Shown in pieces: positions 6,118-23,772 of a DNA stretch of 49,214 nucleotides (position 1 is its first letter; the number at the start of each line of letters is the position of its first letter). Under the pieces are notes generated by a model that saw only the letters and a list, made by a program, of their open reading frames with translations, was not told the DNA's origin and made no database searches. The stretch is from Methanobrevibacter sp. (GTDB lineage Archaea > Methanobacteriota > Methanobacteria > Methanobacteriales > Methanobacteriaceae): assembly GCF_017940815.1 (NCBI RefSeq), contig NZ_JAGAXX010000077.1:1-49214 (forward strand), written 5' to 3'. A program made the position numbers and the translations under genes.

Positions 6118-6990
<873 letters not shown>

Positions 6991-10448: not shown

Positions 10449-11087
10449 GAATGGTTAATATATGTTAGTGCAATTCCTTTGGAATTGATAATGCAGTTGT
10501 ACGCATTATTCCCCCTTGAAACTGCGTCACTGGTAACAGTGGGGTGGGTTGCATGATAGGTTAAAGCTTAATCGTTGTTATAACTTCCATTAACACGAGA
10601 GCGAGGGAAAGATTAATATGCCAAACTAACGTGAACTCCTGACTAAAAGCGTCGTTAATAAAAGCAAGAGGTGGGAAGTACCTTTTCTTCTTACTTATTT
10701 TAAGGAGAAAATACTCTTGTATTATTGGATAAGGTGATATATGAGTCTTACGGCATATATCGGTTACAACCCAAAATGCCAATCGGCGTATTTGGAGTGG
10801 CTAAGTTAATCGCTTCTAACAACTGGTCAACCTGGTAAGCCCAGAATTTGTCCACTCAATAATTTAGTGGTAGGGTGACCGTGAGGGAGTCTGATGTTCT
10901 TTTCTGGGTATGGGATGCTAAAGAAAGCAAATGCCCACATTAATCGAAAGATAGCAGGAAACTGACAAATATAATAACTGTGTTGGGATAGGCTGAATTT
11001 TAGCAGGTGTATCTTCGCTTCATACAAAAACGGCAGATATCTATTAAATGTGAACAAAACCATTAAGATTTTTGGAGAGGATGATTT

Positions 11088-12626
11088 ATGGCGATGAAAA
11101 CTGAATATGATAATAATATTATGTTACAGTCCGTAGAATCAGACGAAGAAAAGCTTAAAGATGAATGGCAGTCTATAAACTGGAATTCTATTGAGCATAG
11201 CATATTTAAGATACAAAAACGGATATATGAAGCAGAGAAAAATGGAGAATATAGAAAAGTTAGAGATCAATCCAGATTACTAACACATAGTAAAAGGAGT
11301 TTATTATATGCAATAAAACTTGTAACTAAAAAGAATAAAGGTAGAAAAACAAGCGGTATTGATGGAATAGTCATCAATAGCGATTCTGAGCGCATGGCTT
11401 TATTTGAGGAACTGTCAAAGCGTAAAATTGATTTACATAATCCTAAACCGGTTCGCAGGATTTATATTCCTAAAAGAAATAATAAGAAACGTCCTTTGGG
11501 AATTCCTACTATTATTGACCGTGTTTATCAGGAAGTATGTAAGTTAGCGCTTGAGCCTATTTGTGAGGCGAAACTTGGAGCCGACAGTTATGGTTTTAGA
11601 CCATCCAGAGGAACAGGAGATGCTATTGCTAAGATTCATGCATCTACCAGAAGATTAAAAAGACCTTATGTCTTTGAAGGTGATTTTCAGTCCTGTTTTG
11701 ATACTTTAAATCATCAACATATTTTAGATAAATTAGGTAACTTTCCATTAAAGAATTTAATTAAAAAGTGGCTTGAAGCAGGATATGTTGAAAATAATGT
11801 ATTTAAGAAGACCAGAACGGGAACACCGCAGGGCGGTATTATATCTCCACTTTTGGCGAATCTTGCACTGCAGGGAATAGAAGAAGCATTAAACGTAACT
11901 TACAAAAGACGTAAACGAAACGGAGAATATTGTTATACAATAGACTCTAAATATGTTGTTATTGTTTATGCAGATGATTTTGTTGTTTTGTGTAAGAGTT
12001 TGGATGATGCTGAAGAGGTTTACAGTCTTTTAGAAGATTATCTGGAAGAACGAGGATTAACTCTGGCACCCGATAAAACAAAGATAACAAGTCTCTACGA
12101 TGGGTTCGATTTTCTTGGTTATAATATTCGGTGTTATAAAAGTCAAGACCGTGATAAAGTGCTTATTAAAGCATCTAAGGACAGTATTAAATCTTTTAAG
12201 AGAAAAGCTAAGGATATTATTAGTAATTGTTATCCTTGGAATTTGGACGAAAGTATTGATAGGCTCAATAATTTAATCTACGGTACTGGTATGTACTGGA
12301 GAATTGGTTCAAATAAAAGATTATTCAATAAAATGGACAATTATATATATGAGCTTTGGATGAGGCAAATTAAGCGTTGGCATCCCAATAAATCAACAAA
12401 GTGGAGAGTTAAGAAGTATTTTAAAGACTCTCAATTTCCTGATTCTAAGGACAAATGGTGTTTTACTGACTCAAATACTAATAATCAGGTTATTAAAATG
12501 GCCAAAATTAGAATTAAATATCATATTTGTTTAAGATATAAAGCTACGCCGTATGATGATGCATTCAATGATTATTACATGAAGCGTTCGTTTAAAAAGC
12601 CTTTTGAGATAGTTTTCAAGAAATAA
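11088..12626 (+). CDS. ltrA: Group II intron reverse transcriptase/maturase 1
   Basis: This 512-residue intron-encoded protein helps the intron RNA fold and splice and copies it into DNA. It has the finger-palm motifs of group II RTs: IPKRNNKKRPLGIPTIIDRV near residue 130, GFRPSRGTGDA near 170, FEGDFQSCFDTL near 200, TPQGGIISPLLANLAL near 245, and the catalytic YADD around residue 293. The maturase (X) domain follows. The C-terminus stops at KATPYDDAFNDYYMKR plus a short tail. Family members usually continue from here into a Cys/His HNH endonuclease, and none is present. It is about 70% identical by eye to the second copy. GGAGAGG precedes the ATG. Confidence 0.92.
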   Translation: MAMKTEYDNNIMLQSVESDEEKLKDEWQSINWNSIEHSIFKIQKRIYEAEKNGEYRKVRDQSRLLTHSKRSLLYAIKLVTKKNKGRKTSGIDGIVINSDSERMALFEELSKRKIDLHNPKPVRRIYIPKRNNKKRPLGIPTIIDRVYQEVCKLALEPICEAKLGADSYGFRPSRGTGDAIAKIHASTRRLKRPYVFEGDFQSCFDTLNHQHILDKLGNFPLKNLIKKWLEAGYVENNVFKKTRTGTPQGGIISPLLANLALQGIEEALNVTYKRRKRNGEYCYTIDSKYVVIVYADDFVVLCKSLDDAEEVYSLLEDYLEERGLTLAPDKTKITSLYDGFDFLGYNIRCYKSQDRDKVLIKASKDSIKSFKRKAKDIISNCYPWNLDESIDRLNNLIYGTGMYWRIGSNKRLFNKMDNYIYELWMRQIKRWHPNKSTKWRVKKYFKDSQFPDSKDKWCFTDSNTNNQVIKMAKIRIKYHICLRYKATPYDDAFNDYYMKRSFKKPFEIVFKK

Positions 12627-12695
12627 TTAATGCAGTGTATATTAAACTTTTATTTCGTATTATATGTTCTTTATATTTTCTTATGAAGTATACTT

Positions 12696-12729
12696 GAGCC
12701 GTATGTCTTAAAAGGGACACGTGCGGTTC
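12696..12729 (+). ncRNA. Group II intron 1 domain V
   Basis: A 34-base hairpin beginning GAGCCGTATGTC and closing ACGTGCGGTTC, with the AGC catalytic triad at 12697-12699 and a tetraloop-like top. This is the most conserved RNA element of group II introns and part of the active site. A domain VI hairpin (GGGGAAACA with TGTTTCTCC) follows before the 3' splice site. Confidence 0.85.
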
Positions 12730-12788
12730 TTAGAAGAGGGGAAACAAGCAATTGTTTCTCCTTATTCGACAAGTTCATAAGTGATATT

Positions 12789-13055
12789 ATGGAATTGTCA
12801 GACGAAATGTTAATTGAAATGAGTTATGTTCAGATTTCAAAGTATAGGGCAAACGTTATGAAAGCTTTAGATGGTGAAACAAAAATACCAACGCAAATTG
12901 CAAGGGATTCAGATATTAGGCCAAATCATATTTCAAAAGTATTATCTGAATTAAAATCACATGAACTGGTTGAATGTATTAATCCTGAAGCTAGAAAAGG
13001 TAGATTGTACCGACTAACTGATAAAGGTGATGAGTTAGTAAAAAATTTAGAATAA
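12789..13055 (+). CDS. Winged-helix transcriptional regulator
   Basis: This 88-residue protein has a single winged-helix domain. KALDGETKIPTQIARDSDIR holds the first helices, PNHISKVLSELKSHELVE the recognition helix, and GRLYRLTDKGDELV the wing and last strand. This pattern matches archaeal MarR/ArsR-like regulators. It begins eight bases after the spliced stop of the fibre gene, with GTGAT upstream, so it may be co-transcribed with the fibre operon or read from within the intron region. It could control the adjacent restriction-modification island or the late genes. The target is unknown. Confidence 0.75.
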   Translation: MELSDEMLIEMSYVQISKYRANVMKALDGETKIPTQIARDSDIRPNHISKVLSELKSHELVECINPEARKGRLYRLTDKGDELVKNLE

Positions 13056-13625
13056 TTACTCAAAAATTTTTCTTGCTTCTTTTCCCATTTTTATTAATTC
13101 ATTTAAATCTTTTCTAAACATGTTTCTATGGTTATTGATACTATTTAAAGACATAGGTAATTTTTTTGTAGGTTGGCCTTCTATATGAAGTTCATTATAG
13201 GGTTCTTGGTCTGAAAGAGCTTTTGCATTGTCAGTTACTTCTTCACATTTTGCATAAAATTGATTTATTCTATTTATTTCTTTTTCATTTAATATGCTTG
13301 GTATAAATGTGATTAGATTAATCCAATTTTTATTATTCCATATGGGAAAATTTATCATCCTATTGTAGAAGTTAAATACTTCATGATTCATTTTTTTATC
13401 TTCACCGATGATTATTTCTTCTTTGATATAATTATCTCTGAATTCTTCAAGAGAATTAATTATATAATCAAGCTCAGATTTTATAAGTGCTTTTGCGCCT
13501 TTTTTTCGTTTGTTAAATTTATATTGTGATGTAACTAATGCAAAGGTGGCCGATGCAATTGCACCTACAATTGCACCAATGATTGCACCAATTACGGTAG
13601 GATTTGTTAATAATTCAATACACAT
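13056..13625 (-). CDS. Membrane-anchored protein paired with AbrB-like regulator 1
   Basis: This 189-residue protein has one N-terminal membrane segment with small-residue zippers (GAIIGAIVGAIASATFALV) and a basic stop-transfer (KFNKRKKG), followed by a cytoplasmic, mostly helical domain with many Asn, Glu and Lys. It is encoded 13 bases downstream of a small AbrB-like gene on the same strand, so the two are probably one operon. It converges with the winged-helix gene (stop at 13055). No family was recognised. The layout, antitoxin-like DNA-binding protein then membrane protein, recalls toxin-antitoxin or abortive-defence cassettes, but this is inference. Confidence 0.65.
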   Translation of the reverse strand: MCIELLTNPTVIGAIIGAIVGAIASATFALVTSQYKFNKRKKGAKALIKSELDYIINSLEEFRDNYIKEEIIIGEDKKMNHEVFNFYNRMINFPIWNNKNWINLITFIPSILNEKEINRINQFYAKCEEVTDNAKALSDQEPYNELHIEGQPTKKLPMSLNSINNHRNMFRKDLNELIKMGKEARKIFE

Positions 13626-13638
13626 TTTTAAATTTATC

Positions 13639-13812
13639 TTATTTTTCTTTTTTATATATTTTTAATTTTAATGATTCAGTTTCTGTATCGAGTATCCATT
13701 GCATTGAATCTCCCGATTCAATATTCAATGCTTTAACATATGTTTTTGGTATTGTTGTAATCAATGAAATTTCACCTTGATTTCTCACTTTTGTTTTCTC
13801 TTCAATATTCAT
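13639..13812 (-). CDS. AbrB/SpoVT-like regulator 1
   Basis: This 57-residue protein begins MNIEEKTKVRNQGEISLITT. It has the swapped-hairpin AbrB pattern: KVR, SL, TIP, then a hydrophobic NIESGD turn and SLKLKIYKK. It aligns with the second small protein at 16587 at KVR, SL, TIP, GD, SL and IYK. It lies upstream of the membrane protein at 13056-13625 and divergently from the methyltransferase gene. Such proteins bind DNA as dimers and often act as antitoxins or autorepressors. Three direct AAATAACATT repeats occur in the intergenic region and could be its sites. Confidence 0.7.
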   Translation of the reverse strand: MNIEEKTKVRNQGEISLITTIPKTYVKALNIESGDSMQWILDTETESLKLKIYKKEK

Positions 13813-13836
13813 ATGGAATTATTTATAATTTATCTT

Positions 13837-13891
13837 AAATAACATTTTTGCATTGTTTAAGTAGTTAAAAAAATAACATTTAAATAACATT
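13837..13891. promoter_or_regulatory. Three AAATAACATT direct repeats between regulator and methyltransferase
   Basis: AAATAACATT occurs at 13837-13846, 13871-13880 and 13882-13891, in the divergent region between AbrB-like gene 1 and the methyltransferase. The two right-hand copies are tandem, 11 bases apart. They are upstream of the TATA-like AAAATATATATTT (13892 onward) that probably serves the methyltransferase. The operator role is inferred. Confidence 0.45.
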
Positions 13892-13977
13892 AAAAATATA
13901 TATTTACATAAGTCATGTAAAAACAAAATTTTATATGAATCGAATTTAATAAATTAATTATATTAAAGGTGACTTAA

Positions 13978-15294
13978 ATGCCATATGCTATTGATTTATT
14001 TTCTGGTGCAGGAGGAATGAGTGAAGGAATTATCCAAGCAGGATTCCATATTTTATTCTCTAGCGATATTAACGAAGCTGTACAGAAAACATATGTTAAT
14101 AGACACGAACAATTAGGTTTAATTCAAGGCGTTAATACCCATTTTGAATTGGCAGATATTAAAGATTTAACCGGAGAGTTTATAAGAGATTCAATAGCAA
14201 ATCTTGATATTTTTAAAAATAAAGAAGTGCCTCATATTGATGCAATATTTGGAGGTCCTCCTTGTCAAGGTTTTAGTAGAGCAGGTAGAAGAGACCCTAA
14301 TGATCCTAGAAATAAATTATTTAAAGAGTATGTTCGTGTAATTGATGAAGTTCAACCGGATTATGTTGTATTGGAGAATGTTGCAGGTTTTTGTGATATG
14401 AAACTCTATGACTTTGAAGGTTTACAAGGAAATACTTATGATGATATGGTAATTCCAGATATTCTTAAAGAAGAATTAAATTTAATTGGGTATGACATAT
14501 TAGAACCAAGAATTCTTAATGCTGCTAATTATGGAGTTCCTCAAAGAAGAAATAGGATTATTATAATAGCTTTTAAAAAAGGTATGAAACCTCCAAGCTA
14601 TCCTGAACCTACACATGATGAAAATAATATTGTTTCACTCAAGGATGCAATAGGTGATCTTATTGGTAATCAAAAAATTAAAAATGATGTAAATCCTAGT
14701 TTAACACAGTATCAGTTAGATTCTATTAATGGTAGAACACCAAATGTAGATGGAAAACCTATTGCTTCTAAAATGATATTGAATAACGAATTATCAAGAC
14801 ATTTACAGTTGATTAAAGAAAGATTTTCTTTATTTGAAGAAGGCGAATCTGGTACTAATTTAAGAAATAGGATTATTACAGAAGGAATTGACTTATCGGA
14901 TAAACCTACCATATTAAATCATTTAGCTAATAATTCCAAGTTTACAAAAGAGGAAATTATTGAAAAATTCAAAAATGCTGATGTTGATGATAAATTAGTT
15001 AATAGTTTATTGACTAAAAAGAATATGAGGCATAGATTAAGTAGACAAGAACCTTCTGCTACTATTGTAACTATTCCTGATGATTATATTTCACCATTTG
15101 AAAATAGAACATTGACTGTTCGTGAATCTGCTAGATTACAATCTTTTGATGATAGTTTTGAATTTTTAGGTAAAAGAACAACAGGTGGAAAAAGAAGGCG
15201 TGTTGAAGTGCCCCAATACTCCCAAGTAGGTAATGCAGTTCCACCATTGTTAGCTAAAGCCGTTGCCAAAGAAATTTTAAAAGTTATTGAATAG
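13978..15294 (+). CDS. DNA (cytosine-5)-methyltransferase
   Basis: This 438-residue type II C5-methyltransferase transfers a methyl group from SAM to cytosine. Motif I is DLFSGAGG at residues 6-13. Motif IV is GGPPCQGFSRAGRR with catalytic Cys at 96. Motif VI is ENV at 133-135. Motif VIII is PQRRNRIIIIAF. Motifs IX/X are seen near the C-terminus, with QVGNAVPPLLAKAVAKEI closing the SAM fold. The region around residues 200-350 is the variable target-recognition domain. It has an AAGGTGA ribosome binding site. It is convergent with the restriction enzyme gene, overlapping it by 11 bases. The pair forms a type II restriction-modification system carried by the provirus. AT-rich codon choice sets it apart from the virion genes. 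Confidence 0.93.
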   Translation: MPYAIDLFSGAGGMSEGIIQAGFHILFSSDINEAVQKTYVNRHEQLGLIQGVNTHFELADIKDLTGEFIRDSIANLDIFKNKEVPHIDAIFGGPPCQGFSRAGRRDPNDPRNKLFKEYVRVIDEVQPDYVVLENVAGFCDMKLYDFEGLQGNTYDDMVIPDILKEELNLIGYDILEPRILNAANYGVPQRRNRIIIIAFKKGMKPPSYPEPTHDENNIVSLKDAIGDLIGNQKIKNDVNPSLTQYQLDSINGRTPNVDGKPIASKMILNNELSRHLQLIKERFSLFEEGESGTNLRNRIITEGIDLSDKPTILNHLANNSKFTKEEIIEKFKNADVDDKLVNSLLTKKNMRHRLSRQEPSATIVTIPDDYISPFENRTLTVRESARLQSFDDSFEFLGKRTTGGKRRRVEVPQYSQVGNAVPPLLAKAVAKEILKVIE

Positions 15295-16474
15295 TTAAAT
15301 CATATTCTTTAGGTTCTGGGAACAACCTATTCAAATTGTCTTTATGTATTTTTAATGCAAACAATCTCCAATAAGGTGATCCATTAGGTTTTATATGCAT
15401 TCCAAAATCTAAAGTTATGATATTACTCATTATCAAAGATGTGATAAAGTTTACATTAGGTTGTCTTGTGTGAATAATTTTATTGTATTGGAAATGCTCA
15501 ACATCATCAATAAATTTGGATTCTGCTTCCACCCAGAAAGTTTCAGCATGCTTATTCAATAACAATTCTTTTAAGTATTCTAAATCCCATTCAACAACTT
15601 CTCCATCGTTAGCATGCATTACTTTCAATGTACTTTCATTATTATCTATATCTAAATATAATCCTTGAGGATTTGGTTTTAATGCATATATGGTACAATA
15701 TAATTGCATTCTATCTTTTTCATCAGAATAGTAACCGTATTTATCAATTATATCCCTTGTTGATTTGCATGGGCTGTTATCCCAGTCAGGTGCTTTATTA
15801 AACAATACATTTCTTGTTTTATTTTTAATTTTCTTTCTCGATGCTTTTAATTCAATACCTTTATAATCAGGATTTGCATAAGAGTTAGGTGGAATGCCAA
15901 GTTCATGTTCTAATGTCATACCTACACCAGTATCGCCAGAGACGACTGTTGGTATAAATCCTTTATTGTGAATATCTTTAATTTTATTGTAAAGTTCACG
16001 AGCTATGGATTGTTTTTCTTGTGATAACCTCAATAATTCCTGATATACATATCCTTTTGTAGTTAATGAATTTTTAACAGTTTCATCAGTTAAATTAAGT
16101 ATATATAATTGTTTTTTATCACTAGCTAATGCAATGAAGCTATCTGCATCACAATATTTTTTGATTCCTCTAAACCATATTCTTGGATCTCCTTTCTTGG
16201 TTTTTGGACGATATAGTGATGCTGTCAATTCAACTGTGGAATCATGTAATATCATTTGTGTTTGCAATTCCACACCATTTTCTTTTTGGCCTTGGCCTTG
16301 TGTTTCATAATCATGTAAGTTATTTTTTCTTAAAAAATTCCTGACAGGTATTGTTGCGTCTATTATACCTTTTGTATATCCAGTTTCGGTAATATATAAA
16401 AAAGACATGTCTAAATTAAGTTCAGAAAACAAAGGCAAATATTCTTGCAGAGCAACCCAATTTTCTTTATTCAT
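15284..16474 (-). CDS. MvaI/BcnI-family type II restriction endonuclease
   Basis: This 396-residue protein has a C-terminal nuclease domain matching the MvaI/BcnI family. GDTGVGMTLE (residues 180-189) is followed by NPDYKGIELK (201-210), which supplies the PD-(D/E)xK catalytic set (D203, E208, K210). Further on, VEAESKF and the HIKPNGSPYWRLF end resemble late conserved segments of MvaI. Known members are monomers that nick CCWGG or CCSGG, so a similar target is likely but not provable here. The first 175 residues form an extra domain absent from MvaI itself. ATG at 16474 is chosen because GTGAT lies upstream; the GTG at 16483 is part of that site. It forms a system with the convergent methyltransferase. 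Confidence 0.85.
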   Translation of the reverse strand: MNKENWVALQEYLPLFSELNLDMSFLYITETGYTKGIIDATIPVRNFLRKNNLHDYETQGQGQKENGVELQTQMILHDSTVELTASLYRPKTKKGDPRIWFRGIKKYCDADSFIALASDKKQLYILNLTDETVKNSLTTKGYVYQELLRLSQEKQSIARELYNKIKDIHNKGFIPTVVSGDTGVGMTLEHELGIPPNSYANPDYKGIELKASRKKIKNKTRNVLFNKAPDWDNSPCKSTRDIIDKYGYYSDEKDRMQLYCTIYALKPNPQGLYLDIDNNESTLKVMHANDGEVVEWDLEYLKELLLNKHAETFWVEAESKFIDDVEHFQYNKIIHTRQPNVNFITSLIMSNIITLDFGMHIKPNGSPYWRLFALKIHKDNLNRLFPEPKEYDLTIQ

Positions 16475-16532
16475 GTTAATCACAACTTTAGTTTTATATT
16501 GTAATATTTCCTAATAATCAAAAATAATAATT

Positions 16533-16569
16533 AATGTACATTGGATACATAAAATATTAAATGTACATT
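16533..16569. promoter_or_regulatory. Two AATGTACATT palindromes between restriction enzyme and regulator 2
   Basis: The perfect 10-base palindrome AATGTACATT occurs at 16533-16542 and 16560-16569, 27 bases apart. Both copies share the flank AATGTACATT-n-GATA. They lie in the 112-base divergent region between the restriction enzyme (start 16474) and AbrB-like gene 2 (start 16587), overlapping likely promoter elements. A dimeric autoregulator would fit such sites. Confidence 0.55.
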
Positions 16570-16586
16570 TGATATAATTATAAAAC

Positions 16587-16763
16587 ATGACAGAAAAGAT
16601 AGTTAAAGTTAGAGGAAGACATGGGACAAAATCTTTGGATATAACAATACCTGCAGAGTTAAGTGATAAATTTGATATAAATGCAGGGGATTTATTTAAA
16701 GTAAATGTTATAAAAGATGATGATTCATTAATTATTAATTATCAGTTAATTTATAAAAATTAA
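16587..16763 (+). CDS. AbrB/SpoVT-like regulator 2
   Basis: This 58-residue protein (MTEKIVKVRGRHGTKSLDIT...) has the AbrB swapped-hairpin pattern: VKVRGRHG, then LDITIPAEL, NAGDLFKV, and a last strand LIINYQLIYK. It aligns with the small protein at 13639-13812. It is transcribed away from the restriction enzyme, and two perfect palindromes lie between them. It probably represses its own promoter and may also time restriction-enzyme expression, a job done by C proteins in other systems. A membrane protein gene follows 80 bases downstream. Confidence 0.7.
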   Translation: MTEKIVKVRGRHGTKSLDITIPAELSDKFDINAGDLFKVNVIKDDDSLIINYQLIYKN

Positions 16764-16843
16764 TTTTATGAATGGGAAAAACAATGCATTGAGAAAATAT
16801 TAAAGTAATTAAAGTTGTTACTAATTGTATAAGAATTTTTTTG

Positions 16844-17455
16844 ATGGATATTATGAGAAATATAAAAAATGAAATTTACAATATTATAAAAGGAGTCATA
16901 GTTTCTTTAATAGCCAATATCTTGCTTGATTTTTACAATAATGATTTTAGTATTTCTAAGATGACTTTTGACAGTTTAATTTCAACATTTGTAGAGTTTT
17001 GGTGGTTGGTTTTAATAATTTTTATTTTAGTATTATTAAGATTTAAAATGAGTGAAAAACCACATAAAATAAATTATCATCATAGACATGCTGAATTTAG
17101 GGGTAGAAGACCTATTTTGCATGATGGTGGAATTTGGGAAATTGTTGTTGAAGAAATTAACCCTTTATTTACTTATAATACAAGTGAATCTAATATTAAT
17201 TATTATGTTGATAAAATAAGATGTTGTAATGAATTAAATAATGGAGAATTATGCTTAAGTGAGTTATATCTTATTGATATCGGATTTTGTTATTTGGAGA
17301 AATGTGACAATTGTTCTTTTAAAAGAGTAACTTTAAAAAGTCATGACAGAGAAATTTCTGAAATATTAACTAAAATTGATGCTTTAATTGTGCGGAAAGA
17401 CATTAAAGATTGTTATGAGTTGTTAGATGTATTGTCTAATGAAGAAGAGTTATGA
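16844..17455 (+). CDS. Two-helix membrane protein paired with AbrB-like regulator 2
   Basis: This protein of about 203 residues has two membrane segments: residues about 10-28 (YNIIKGVIVSLIANILLDFY) and 47-67 (FWWLVLIIFILVLLRFKM). A cytoplasmic domain follows, containing RHAEFRGRRP, an aromatic middle part and a Cys pair EKCDNCSF; another Cys pair (RCC) precedes it, so metal binding is possible. ATG at 16844 follows an in-frame TTG. It mirrors the membrane protein at 13056-13625 on the other side of the restriction-modification pair, though the two are not clearly homologous. Its function is unknown. Confidence 0.6.
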   Translation: MDIMRNIKNEIYNIIKGVIVSLIANILLDFYNNDFSISKMTFDSLISTFVEFWWLVLIIFILVLLRFKMSEKPHKINYHHRHAEFRGRRPILHDGGIWEIVVEEINPLFTYNTSESNINYYVDKIRCCNELNNGELCLSELYLIDIGFCYLEKCDNCSFKRVTLKSHDREISEILTKIDALIVRKDIKDCYELLDVLSNEEEL

Positions 17456-17708: not shown

Positions 17709-18194
17709 ATGGCAGATTCAATTATTTTACTTGAAGAAAGAAAAGAAGTTACTACTTTCTTATTAGACGAAGGCACCATCACTGCAACTACCGTTACAAC
17801 TCCTACCGGAGAAACTCCTGGATTTGAATATGCAGGAGATAAAGTTAAAGTTGATGATGCCGTAACACTCTCAGAAAATTCAGACATCGGAAAACCTACA
17901 GTTAAAAAATACACTGCAGCTGAAGGTGAAATCATTTTAGGCATTGCAGTCAACGATCCTGTCACCATGACTGGAGGCAGAAGAAAAACATCAGTATTGG
18001 TGTTAGGCCATCTGTTCAGATTAAAACTCGCTTCAGGTTTATCAAACATTAAAGTCAATGATAAAATCGCTTTATCAAGTACCGGAGCTATCAAATCCGA
18101 TGACGGCGAATACATTGCAATGCATCCTGTGGAAAGTTCTGACGATTACAATTACGTTGAAGTATTCAGACCATACGATATAGGTGAACACTAA
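17709..18194 (+). CDS. Capsid decoration / stabilisation protein
   Basis: This 161-residue beta-rich protein lies directly before two capsid genes; its stop overlaps the ATG of the first (TAATG). Its size, position and start (MADSIILLEERKEVTTFLLD) fit the small head-decorating proteins that cap HK97-type shells. It has a full-length paralogue as the N-terminal domain of the protein at 5457. No cysteine or membrane segment is present. The decoration role is inferred from gene order, since known families of this type vary greatly in sequence. Confidence 0.7.
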   Translation: MADSIILLEERKEVTTFLLDEGTITATTVTTPTGETPGFEYAGDKVKVDDAVTLSENSDIGKPTVKKYTAAEGEIILGIAVNDPVTMTGGRRKTSVLVLGHLFRLKLASGLSNIKVNDKIALSSTGAIKSDDGEYIAMHPVESSDDYNYVEVFRPYDIGEH

Positions 18195-20897: not shown

Positions 20898-21482
20898 ATG
20901 TCAAATGATTATATCAGCTGGACAGGCTTTTGCCAGGCAATGAATTCAATCGCCTACTGGCTTGTCCAAAACCAGAAGAAGTACAGGAAACGTGACCATT
21001 ACCAGATATTAACATTAAAAGGTAACTGTAAAAGTATAGAAAAGAAAGCTAAAAAACTTGGAACAGATAAGCTGGTGGCAATGTATACAATGGCTTTAAT
21101 TAAAGATAATAAATCTTTAGATTTCCTTCCAAACTATGTAACACTAAAGAACGGAACTCAAATCGACAAGGCCGAATATGTTGACATGGCCATAAGAACT
21201 GAAAGCTATATCAGAGCAAACGGAAGACTTCCGGCAATTGTCTATCGCAAGTCAACATTACCTGACTATAACGATTCAACAATGAAGTTATTTATAAAGA
21301 CTTATACTTTCAAAGGTAATAGTATTGATGAGGCACTGGCAGTAATAGCTAAAAAGAAATTATACAGCAAATACTTTGATTCACAAAAAACAGACAAGAA
21401 AACAATAACCGACGCTAAGGATGGTAAAGGTTCCAATTGTGTGGACTGGGGGCAAGTGTATTATAGAAGTGCGACAAGCTAG
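20898..21482 (+). CDS. Pseudomurein endoisopeptidase, 5' exon (PeiW/PeiP-like)
   Basis: This is the first exon of a C71-type endoisopeptidase, the enzyme by which methanobacterial viruses cut the peptide cross-links of pseudomurein at lysis. The region around residues 70-115 contains the pseudomurein-binding repeat pattern (LDFLPNYVTL, then YIRANGRLPAIV). Exon 1 ends after 190 codons plus one base at 21468; the last exon residues, SNCVDWGQVYYR, carry catalytic Cys 181. The unspliced frame reads into the intron and stops four codons later at 21482. Joined to 23773-24011 it gives a 269-residue protein, slightly shorter than PeiW/PeiP. A late promoter lies at 20838. Confidence 0.9.
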   Translation: MSNDYISWTGFCQAMNSIAYWLVQNQKKYRKRDHYQILTLKGNCKSIEKKAKKLGTDKLVAMYTMALIKDNKSLDFLPNYVTLKNGTQIDKAEYVDMAIRTESYIRANGRLPAIVYRKSTLPDYNDSTMKLFIKTYTFKGNSIDEALAVIAKKKLYSKYFDSQKTDKKTITDAKDGKGSNCVDWGQVYYRSATS

Positions 21483-22103
21483 GACCAGTAATTTGTTATA
21501 TGTTTAATTAACATATGTTAGTGCAGTTAATTAACTGATAACGTTGTTGTGCGCGTTATTCTCCCTTGAAACTGCGTCACCGGTAACGGTGGGGTGGGTT
21601 GCATGAAAGGTAAAGCCTAATTGATGTCATAACTTCCAATGGCACAAGGGCGAGAGAAAGATTAGTATTGGTTAACGACCGTGAACTCCTGAAAAAAGCA
21701 TCGTCATAGACAGCAATGGGTAGGAAGTTTCGAAGAGCCATTGTATTACTGGATAAAAGGTCATACATGATTTTCTGTGCATGTATATAGGACACAACCC
21801 TCATACCAGTCGGTGTAATTGGAGAACCTAACCTAATCGTATCTAACAACTGGTTAACTTGGTAAGCCCAGAACTGCCCACTTGATGTGGTAGGGTGACC
21901 GTGAGGAAATCTGATGTTCTTTTCTGGGTAGGGGATGCTAAAGGAAGCAAATGCCCACTTTAATCGAAAGATTATCAGTAAACTGACAAATATAATAACT
22001 GTGTGGGATAGGCTGACTTTTAGCAGGTGTATCTTTTGTTTCATTTAAAACGGAAGATGTCTTGAATGTGAAATAAATATAAAGATTTTATGAGAGTGTG
22101 ATT

Positions 22104-23633
22104 TTGGCAATGAAAACTGGATATAGCGATATATTGCAGTCTGTGGAATCAGACAAAAGAGTACTTGGGAAAGAGTGGAAGTCCATTAACTGGAAATCTC
22201 TTGGGTATGCCATATTTAAGATACAAAAACGGATATTTGAAGCAGAGAAAGCAGGTGACTATAGAAAAGTTAACAGTCTATGTAGACTGTTAGTTAATGA
22301 TAAAAGGAGTTTATTATATGCTATTTATGTAGTAACCAAAAGAAATAAAGGTAAAAGAACTAGTGGTATTGATGGTAAAATCATAAGAACGGATAGCGAA
22401 CGTATGGCTCTATTTTATAAACTTTCAAATTACAAAATTAGCCTACATAATCCTAAGCCTGTTCGTAGGATTTATATTCCTAAAAAGAATGGAAAAACAA
22501 GGCCTTTAGGCATTCCTAGTATTATTGATAGAATATATCAAGAAATATGTAAGTTAGCATTAGAGCCAATGTGGGAAGCTAAGTTTGGAGCGAATAGTTT
22601 TGGTTTTAGACCTCTTCGTGGAACTGGTGATGCTATTGCAAAAATACATGCTCATACAAGAGGTTTAAAGAGATTATATGTCTTTGAAGGAGATTTCAAA
22701 TCTTGCTTTGATACTTTGAGTCATCAACATATATTGGATAAACTAGGTAATTTTCCTCTTAAAAAGTTGATTAAGAAATGGTTGGAAGCAGGATATCTTG
22801 AAAATGATGTATTTTATAGAACCAGAACTGGCACTCCGCAAGGGGGCATTATATCTCCATTATTGGCCAATATTGCGCTTCATGGTATGGAAGAGGCACT
22901 TAATATCAAATATCGGAGAAGAATAAAGAACAATCGTCTTTATTATTCAAATGAATCCAAATATGTTGTTATTAGGTACGCCGATGATTTTGTAGTATTG
23001 TGTAAGACATTGGAGGATGCAGAAGCATTGTATGGCTTGTTAGATGACTATTTGAATGAAAGAGGTTTAACCTTGGCTTCGGATAAAACAAGGATTACAA
23101 ATCTATATGATGGTTTTGACTTTTTGGGATATAATATACGATGCTACAAAGGTAAAGATCGTGATAAGGTGCTTATTAAAGCATCTAATGACAGCATCAA
23201 ATCTTTTATGGACAAGGCCAAAGTTATCATTCGCAATTGCTACCCATGGAATCTTGAAGAGAGTATTACTCGCCTCAACTATTTAATTAATGGGACTGGT
23301 AATTACTGGAAGAGAGGTTCAAATAAGAAATTATTCAGTAAAATGGATAATTATATCTTTAGACTCTGGATGAGACAAATCAAAAGATGGTATCCTAATA
23401 AATCTACTAAATGGAGAGTTAAGAAACATTTTAAAGTATCTGAACATCCCGGTCATAATGATAGATGGACTTTTACTGACCCTAAAACTGGTAGCCAAGT
23501 GGATAAAATGTCATGGATTAGTATCCAATATCATAAATGCATTAAATATCGTGCTTCACCTTATGACGTTGAATATGATGAATACTTCGATAAACGCTTG
23601 TTGAAAACACCTTTCGAATATTTATTTGGTTAA
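22104..23633 (+). CDS. ltrA: Group II intron reverse transcriptase/maturase 2
   Basis: This protein of about 509 residues is homologous throughout to the protein of intron 1. Motifs include IPKKNGKTRPLGIPSIIDRI, GFRPLRGTGDAIAKIHAH, FEGDFKSCFDTLSHQHIL, TPQGGIISPLLANIAL and the catalytic YADD near residue 293. The maturase domain follows. As in copy 1, the chain ends soon after RASPYDVEYDEYFDKR, without the Cys/His HNH endonuclease usual in relatives. By alignment with copy 1 the start is TTG at 22104; GTG at 22098 and ATG at 22110 are in frame. Roughly 30% divergence from copy 1 argues against a recent duplication within this provirus. Confidence 0.9.
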   Translation: MAMKTGYSDILQSVESDKRVLGKEWKSINWKSLGYAIFKIQKRIFEAEKAGDYRKVNSLCRLLVNDKRSLLYAIYVVTKRNKGKRTSGIDGKIIRTDSERMALFYKLSNYKISLHNPKPVRRIYIPKKNGKTRPLGIPSIIDRIYQEICKLALEPMWEAKFGANSFGFRPLRGTGDAIAKIHAHTRGLKRLYVFEGDFKSCFDTLSHQHILDKLGNFPLKKLIKKWLEAGYLENDVFYRTRTGTPQGGIISPLLANIALHGMEEALNIKYRRRIKNNRLYYSNESKYVVIRYADDFVVLCKTLEDAEALYGLLDDYLNERGLTLASDKTRITNLYDGFDFLGYNIRCYKGKDRDKVLIKASNDSIKSFMDKAKVIIRNCYPWNLEESITRLNYLINGTGNYWKRGSNKKLFSKMDNYIFRLWMRQIKRWYPNKSTKWRVKKHFKVSEHPGHNDRWTFTDPKTGSQVDKMSWISIQYHKCIKYRASPYDVEYDEYFDKRLLKTPFEYLFG

Positions 23634-23696
23634 CTCACATATAATAACTCCAGTTATCTATTGAAATAGTCGCTTACTTTCTTATAAAGTATGCTT

Positions 23697-23731
23697 GAGC
23701 CGAATAGTGGTGAAAGCCACACGTTCGGTTC
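23697..23731 (+). ncRNA. Group II intron 2 domain V
   Basis: The hairpin begins GAGCCGAATAGTGG, has a GAAA-type loop and closes with CCACACGTTCGGTTC; the AGC triad is at 23698-23700. It matches domain V of intron 1 in position and ends, with compensating changes in the distal stem. Confidence 0.85.
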
Positions 23732-23772
23732 TTAGGAGAGAAAGAGAGAGTAATCTCTCTGACTTATCCGAC

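Follow-up and report, generated by a model that had tools for sequence, protein, structure and literature searches.

A type II restriction-modification island with two predicted AbrB-fold controllers in the cargo slot of a methanogen provirus

The timing of restriction-modification (R-M) enzymes is known mainly from bacterial helix-turn-helix C proteins. Examples of type II systems with a C protein are PvuII, BamHI and Csp231I (PMC12707154). There is normally one C protein per system, often co-transcribed with the restriction gene (R). The locus described here resembles these systems in that a small, predicted DNA-binding protein is encoded within an R-M locus and has a repeated (here predicted) operator in its own promoter, and the methyltransferase (M) would be expected ahead of the nuclease. 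In contrast, the island harbours two candidate controllers, A1 and A2, each divergent from either M or R, and both match MazE/AbrB models rather than the helix-turn-helix of the C family.

A further parallel is RptR, which represses type I R-M defence islands of Gammaproteobacteria (PMC12255303). Like the predicted controllers A1 and A2, RptR is a tiny protein encoded by the first gene of a defence operon, with an R-M partner that is kept across hosts and embedded accessory defence genes, and its promoter, like that of A1, contains three direct repeats. However, RptR is all-helical, has the site TAGCTA and belongs to bacterial type I systems, whereas A1 and A2 are AbrB-fold proteins of an archaeal type II system: instead of the four-helix RptR fold, the profile of A2 retrieves AbrB structures from the PDB (E 5.5e-7), and A1 is related to A2. 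The setting of the island recalls the antiviral hotspots of P2 and P4 prophages, where constant phage flanks enclose swappable antiviral cargo (PMC9122126). Here the slot lies between tail and head genes of an archaeal tailed provirus, the cargo is mostly R-M, and AbrB-led cassettes are reused with different cargo. The GenBank relative of the provirus, Caudoviricetes sp. vir323 (BK063679.1), is of the same provirus family and carries in the same slot a C5 methyltransferase gene behind a gene for a small DNA-binding protein, but this small gene looks ribbon-helix-helix rather than AbrB and is on the same strand as the methyltransferase gene. It encodes 57 amino acids (L066:14122-14295), is located directly 5' of the slot methyltransferase gene and is a possible analogue of A1.

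The window, i.e. the whole stretch of DNA analysed, is a complete contig of 49,214 nucleotides from a Methanobacteriaceae genome of the Methanobrevibacter type. The island comprises, from left to right, the leftward genes MP1 (13056..13625, minus strand) and A1 (13639..13812, minus strand), the methyltransferase gene (13978..15294, plus strand), the convergent restriction endonuclease (REase) gene (15284..16483, minus strand; GTG start, or ATG at 16474) and the rightward genes A2 (16587..16763, plus strand) and MP2 (16841..17455, plus strand; likely ATG start at 16844). The 3' ends of the two enzyme genes overlap by 11 bp. This six-gene layout had been noted in a preliminary description of the DNA and is present as described. 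Its claim that A1 and A2 are homologous is supported by a comparison of their profiles (hhalign E 5.6e-5, probability 66%), and MP1 and MP2, said to be non-homologous, have no recognisable relationship. The description had also read the six genes as one symmetric cassette in which outward AbrB and membrane genes flank an R-M pair in an antiviral setting. While the flanking arrangement and the setting are retained, the full six-gene order was observed in the source genome alone. The idea that all six genes are conserved as one cassette was therefore rejected. Three genomes contain the five-gene set A1-M-R-A2-MP2. Two features go beyond the preliminary description, namely the location in a provirus and the conserved divergent promoter regions that are common to the AbrB and the M/R genes. 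With moderate confidence we replace the symmetric toxin cassette by a defence slot of the provirus for AbrB-led R-M cassettes; in this slot the island is cargo consisting of a type II R-M system, two AbrB-fold controllers and swappable accessory genes.

Judged by its sequence, the core of the island is a type II R-M system with an MvaI/BcnI-type nuclease and a C5-cytosine DNA methyltransferase. The methyltransferase matches PF00145 (E 6.5e-63) and TIGR00675 (E 2.6e-54) and contains the catalytic motifs GGPPCQGFS and ENV. The REase matches PF15515 MvaI_BcnI (E 7.2e-59), its nuclease domain forming the C-terminal half, and comparison with R.BcnI (E 3.8e-9) and R.MvaI (E 1.1e-3) aligns the active-site motif PDYKGIELK. 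The features of a type II system, an REase of a known family with an intact active-site motif and an adjacent methyltransferase with catalytic motifs, are thus present. Nuclease domain and active-site motif are the same as in the MvaI/BcnI endonucleases, but the island REase has an extra N-terminal region of about 160 residues and a partner methyltransferase of the C5 type. The window-type M/R pair is found together in five loci. A related pair from another genus (L050; 71% and 47% identical) is located where neither A1 nor A2 is detectable, and the controllers are thus not essential to the enzyme pair. At L050 a similar GTTAAAATAC motif occurs upstream of both M and R (L050:3500-3815 and 6320-6470), which hints at another regulator.

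A1 is a 57-aa protein of the AbrB/MazE fold and the predicted controller facing the methyltransferase gene. It matches PF04014 MazE/AbrB weakly (E 6.2e-5, under the curated cut-off). The A1 family comprises 15 loci at E < 1e-24, with the next relatives appearing only at E 5e-9. A C5 methyltransferase gene is divergent from A1 in all 15 loci (in L061 a fragment), and the enzymes belong to three lineages with about 30% identity between them (window-type, Eco47II-type and L051/L061-type). For the weaker A1 relatives (30-57% identity), no recognised R-M gene adjoins in the 3-kb loci checked. The divergent promoter region between A1 and the methyltransferase gene (13813..13977) contains three TAACATT direct repeats, which start at 13840, 13874 and 13885. 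Measured from the A1 start, TAACATT-like repeats are located at about +27, +61/62 and +72/73 in 15/15 A1-methyltransferase regions, the third copy being degenerate in a few loci. Among the compared pairs with different methyltransferases, identity is 68-80% over the 80 bases nearest to A1 and 51-64% in the methyltransferase-proximal part, against 37% for shuffled sequence. Inspection of the DNA upstream of the Eco47II-type nuclease genes revealed no AbrB gene; since A1 is the only AbrB gene in these cassettes, R would not be AbrB-controlled there. No A1 relatives were found in the phage collection, and no close ones in IMG/VR viral contigs.

A2, the predicted controller facing the REase gene, is a 58-aa AbrB-fold protein with a weak match to PF04014 MazE/AbrB (E 8.6e-4, under the curated cut-off) and a match to TIGR01439 (E 3.1e-6). 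A restriction gene is divergent from A2 in 9/9 close relatives, the window's A2 included. The facing genes are of the MvaI/BcnI type in five cases, two-subunit REase_II in three (two intact, one remnant) and ResIII+Mrr in one. Distant A2 relatives (41-49%, genus g12) are located in other chromosomal contexts. A scan of 84,980 species yielded six A2 loci, all in Methanobrevibacter or Methanosphaera, and the named same-genus relatives with A2 are Methanobrevibacter MAGs. The divergent promoter region between REase and A2 genes (16484..16586) contains two AATGTACATT palindromes at 16533 and 16560, 27 bp apart, with no other copies in the window; a comparable repeated palindrome arose in 1 of 300 first-order simulated windows. 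The palindromes are kept with small changes in close A2 relatives, across different nuclease types, and the exact palindromes are lost in L111, the most distant of these. As the A1 and A2 repeat motifs differ, M and R may be controlled separately. The conserved repeats in both divergent regions are predicted to correspond to the repeated operator of C-protein systems.

Based on the observed gene identities, slot, cargo exchange, synteny and conserved repeats, we tentatively propose that the two AbrB-fold proteins act as controllers of M and R with their own operators and, in addition, as operon heads for plug-in accessory defence genes. We infer that the conserved repeats in the divergent regions are the binding sites of A1 and A2, which would repress their own operons and tune M and R separately. 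In this way the provirus could methylate the DNA of a new host before nuclease levels increase, and the R-M system could then restrict competing viruses during lysogeny. Since the AbrB genes are the first genes of outward operons, a gene inserted behind A1 or A2 would fall under the same control, and MP1 and MP2 would be such genes. The constant M or R gene opposite A1 and A2, the repeats kept across different enzymes and the exchange of genes behind A1 count for the controller model, as does the small size of A1 and A2 (57-58 aa), which hold little beyond the DNA-binding domain. Points against it are the AbrB homology, which is below the Pfam curated cut-off, the Eco47II-type cassettes with A1 alone, the L050 pair and the lack of a significant fold match for MP1 and MP2. 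The conserved repeats could also serve AbrB autoregulation alone. In that case A1 and A2 would regulate only their accessory operons, M and R would be independent of them, and the divergent placement would reflect cassette recombination. The first of the A1 repeats and the two palindromes of A2 are indeed near the AbrB start codons, and the L050 enzyme pair occurs without either protein. However, A1 is still divergent to a methyltransferase gene where no accessory gene follows: in L058 and L060 only about 12 bp separate its end from the convergent wHTH gene, which leaves no room for one. A2, in turn, is kept with different nuclease types and without MP2 in L048, L049, L058 and L099. We therefore consider autoregulation alone unlikely; by analogy with C proteins and RptR, the most likely reading is that the controllers regulate themselves, set the timing of M and R and take accessory genes along.

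In the preliminary description the membrane genes are paired with the AbrB genes. MP1 has one predicted N-terminal TM segment and a helical cytosolic domain, and MP2 has two predicted TM helices and a four-Cys zinc-ribbon-like domain with cysteines that are invariant in the alignment. In structure searches with the AF2 models (pLDDT 78 for MP1 and 68 for MP2) neither protein gave a match with E <= 0.001, the MP2 zinc ribbon reaching E 2 with the eIF2-beta ribbon. An assignment of MP1 as LeoB/PDC-M09B (PADLOC E ~0.004) was rejected as chance coiled-coil/TM similarity. The preliminary description suggested that the island may combine restriction with a membrane-acting toxin or abortive response. 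In a corresponding rival reading each AbrB-membrane pair is a toxin-antitoxin or abortive-infection unit, with a MazE-like antitoxin and a membrane toxin, that hitchhikes on the R-M system. This is consistent with the matches to PF04014 MazE_antitoxin and TIGR02609 'putative addiction module antidote', the gap of just 13 bp between A1 and MP1 and the predicted membrane location of MP1 and MP2. It does not agree with the neighbourhoods, in which the AbrB genes keep their R-M partner whereas the following gene differs between loci or is lacking. A1 has no constant toxin partner. The genes behind it are of at least six unrelated kinds, with MP1, PDC-S54 (PADLOC E 3e-121), Schlafen-AlbA, a 189-aa TM protein, DUF3800, an MCM/HNH protein, zf156 followed by MP1, and others, and in some loci there is none. 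A1 and A2 are also without the toxin-binding C-terminal region, and relatives of MP1 and MP2 also occur without A1 or A2. We thus regard toxin-antitoxin pairs as improbable. MP1 relatives are found after HsdS and DUF1802 genes (L063), an Avs4-like C-terminal fragment (L056), zf156 (L062, L064) or a nucleotidyltransferase gene (L119), and in L117 an MP2 relative is located after a type IIG enzyme and ahead of a HEPN-TPR protein. That both recur next to other defence genes favours an accessory role against viruses. MP1 and MP2 are probably accessory genes for membrane-located antiviral or superinfection-exclusion proteins, which is the weakest step of the controller model. No close relatives of either were found in IMG/VR viral contigs, and none in plasmids.

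The island is located within a tailed provirus, as it is surrounded by tail-fibre-like, capsid (PF25209), terminase, MCM and integrase genes. The portal and prohead protease of vir323 have no match within window positions 1-49214, and the provirus may therefore be defective or its portal may lie elsewhere. The provirus also harbours two group II introns (about 10450-12785 and about 21480-23770; RT proteins 72% and DNA 74% identical), one of them located where the tail-fibre gene ends, the other interrupting the pseudomurein endopeptidase gene. The left flank of the cargo slot is a tail-end wHTH gene (12789..13055, plus strand), of which about 70-83% identical copies adjoin the tail gene in relatives. 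The right flank is the first head gene (17709..18194, plus strand; 87-95% identical in relatives), annotated as 'preneck appendage protein' in vir323 and with relatives in 33 of 139 family genomes. Between these constant flanks the cargo differs among relatives.

Complete slots, whose two flanks are on a single contig, were counted from gene maps. There are 23 of them, 18 of which carry R-M genes (methyltransferase and/or nuclease) of types I, II, III and IIG. Type II with a C5 methyltransferase is found in the window, L046, L047, L092, L057, L058, L066 and L099, type III in L084 and L087-L091 (L089 and L090 are identical copies from one genome), type IIG in L086 and type I in L085, L093 and L094. 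Types were assigned with Pfam/PADLOC for representatives and with tblastn for the remainder, the matches of L084 and L091 being partial. The five slots without recognised R-M genes harbour MP1 with a RelBE-like pair and others (L064), one 136-aa gene (L095), an AAA ATPase (L096) or only a RelBE-like pair identified by eye (L097, L098). Constant flanks around variable, defence-rich cargo are the features of a provirus antiviral hotspot. A conserved 134-136-aa gene (L095:2755-3165 and ten other loci) is present in many slots, often adjoining the head genes. In four relatives the slot contains genes of 73 and 87 aa that read as an RHH antitoxin and a RelE/ParE toxin (L064:7757-8234, L086:5900-6374, L097:1182-1659, L098:2780-3254). 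R-M systems can be addiction modules (PMC3874152) and such RelBE-like pairs share the slot, but with antiviral-type cargo of type I, III and IIG R-M, Schlafen-AlbA and PDC-S54 genes it is very improbable that the island is mainly a selfish module stabilising the provirus by post-segregational killing.

The literature searched, with incomplete coverage, contained no AbrB-controlled R-M system, and two reviews of R-M regulation say nothing of AbrB. To our knowledge the island is the first candidate for AbrB-type R-M control in archaeal proviruses. If true, dual AbrB-type control would be a second solution to R-M timing, in which A1 recurs with methyltransferases of three lineages. The viruses of gut methanogens are poorly studied, and the slot is a source of candidate antiviral genes from these organisms, several of them without a known family.
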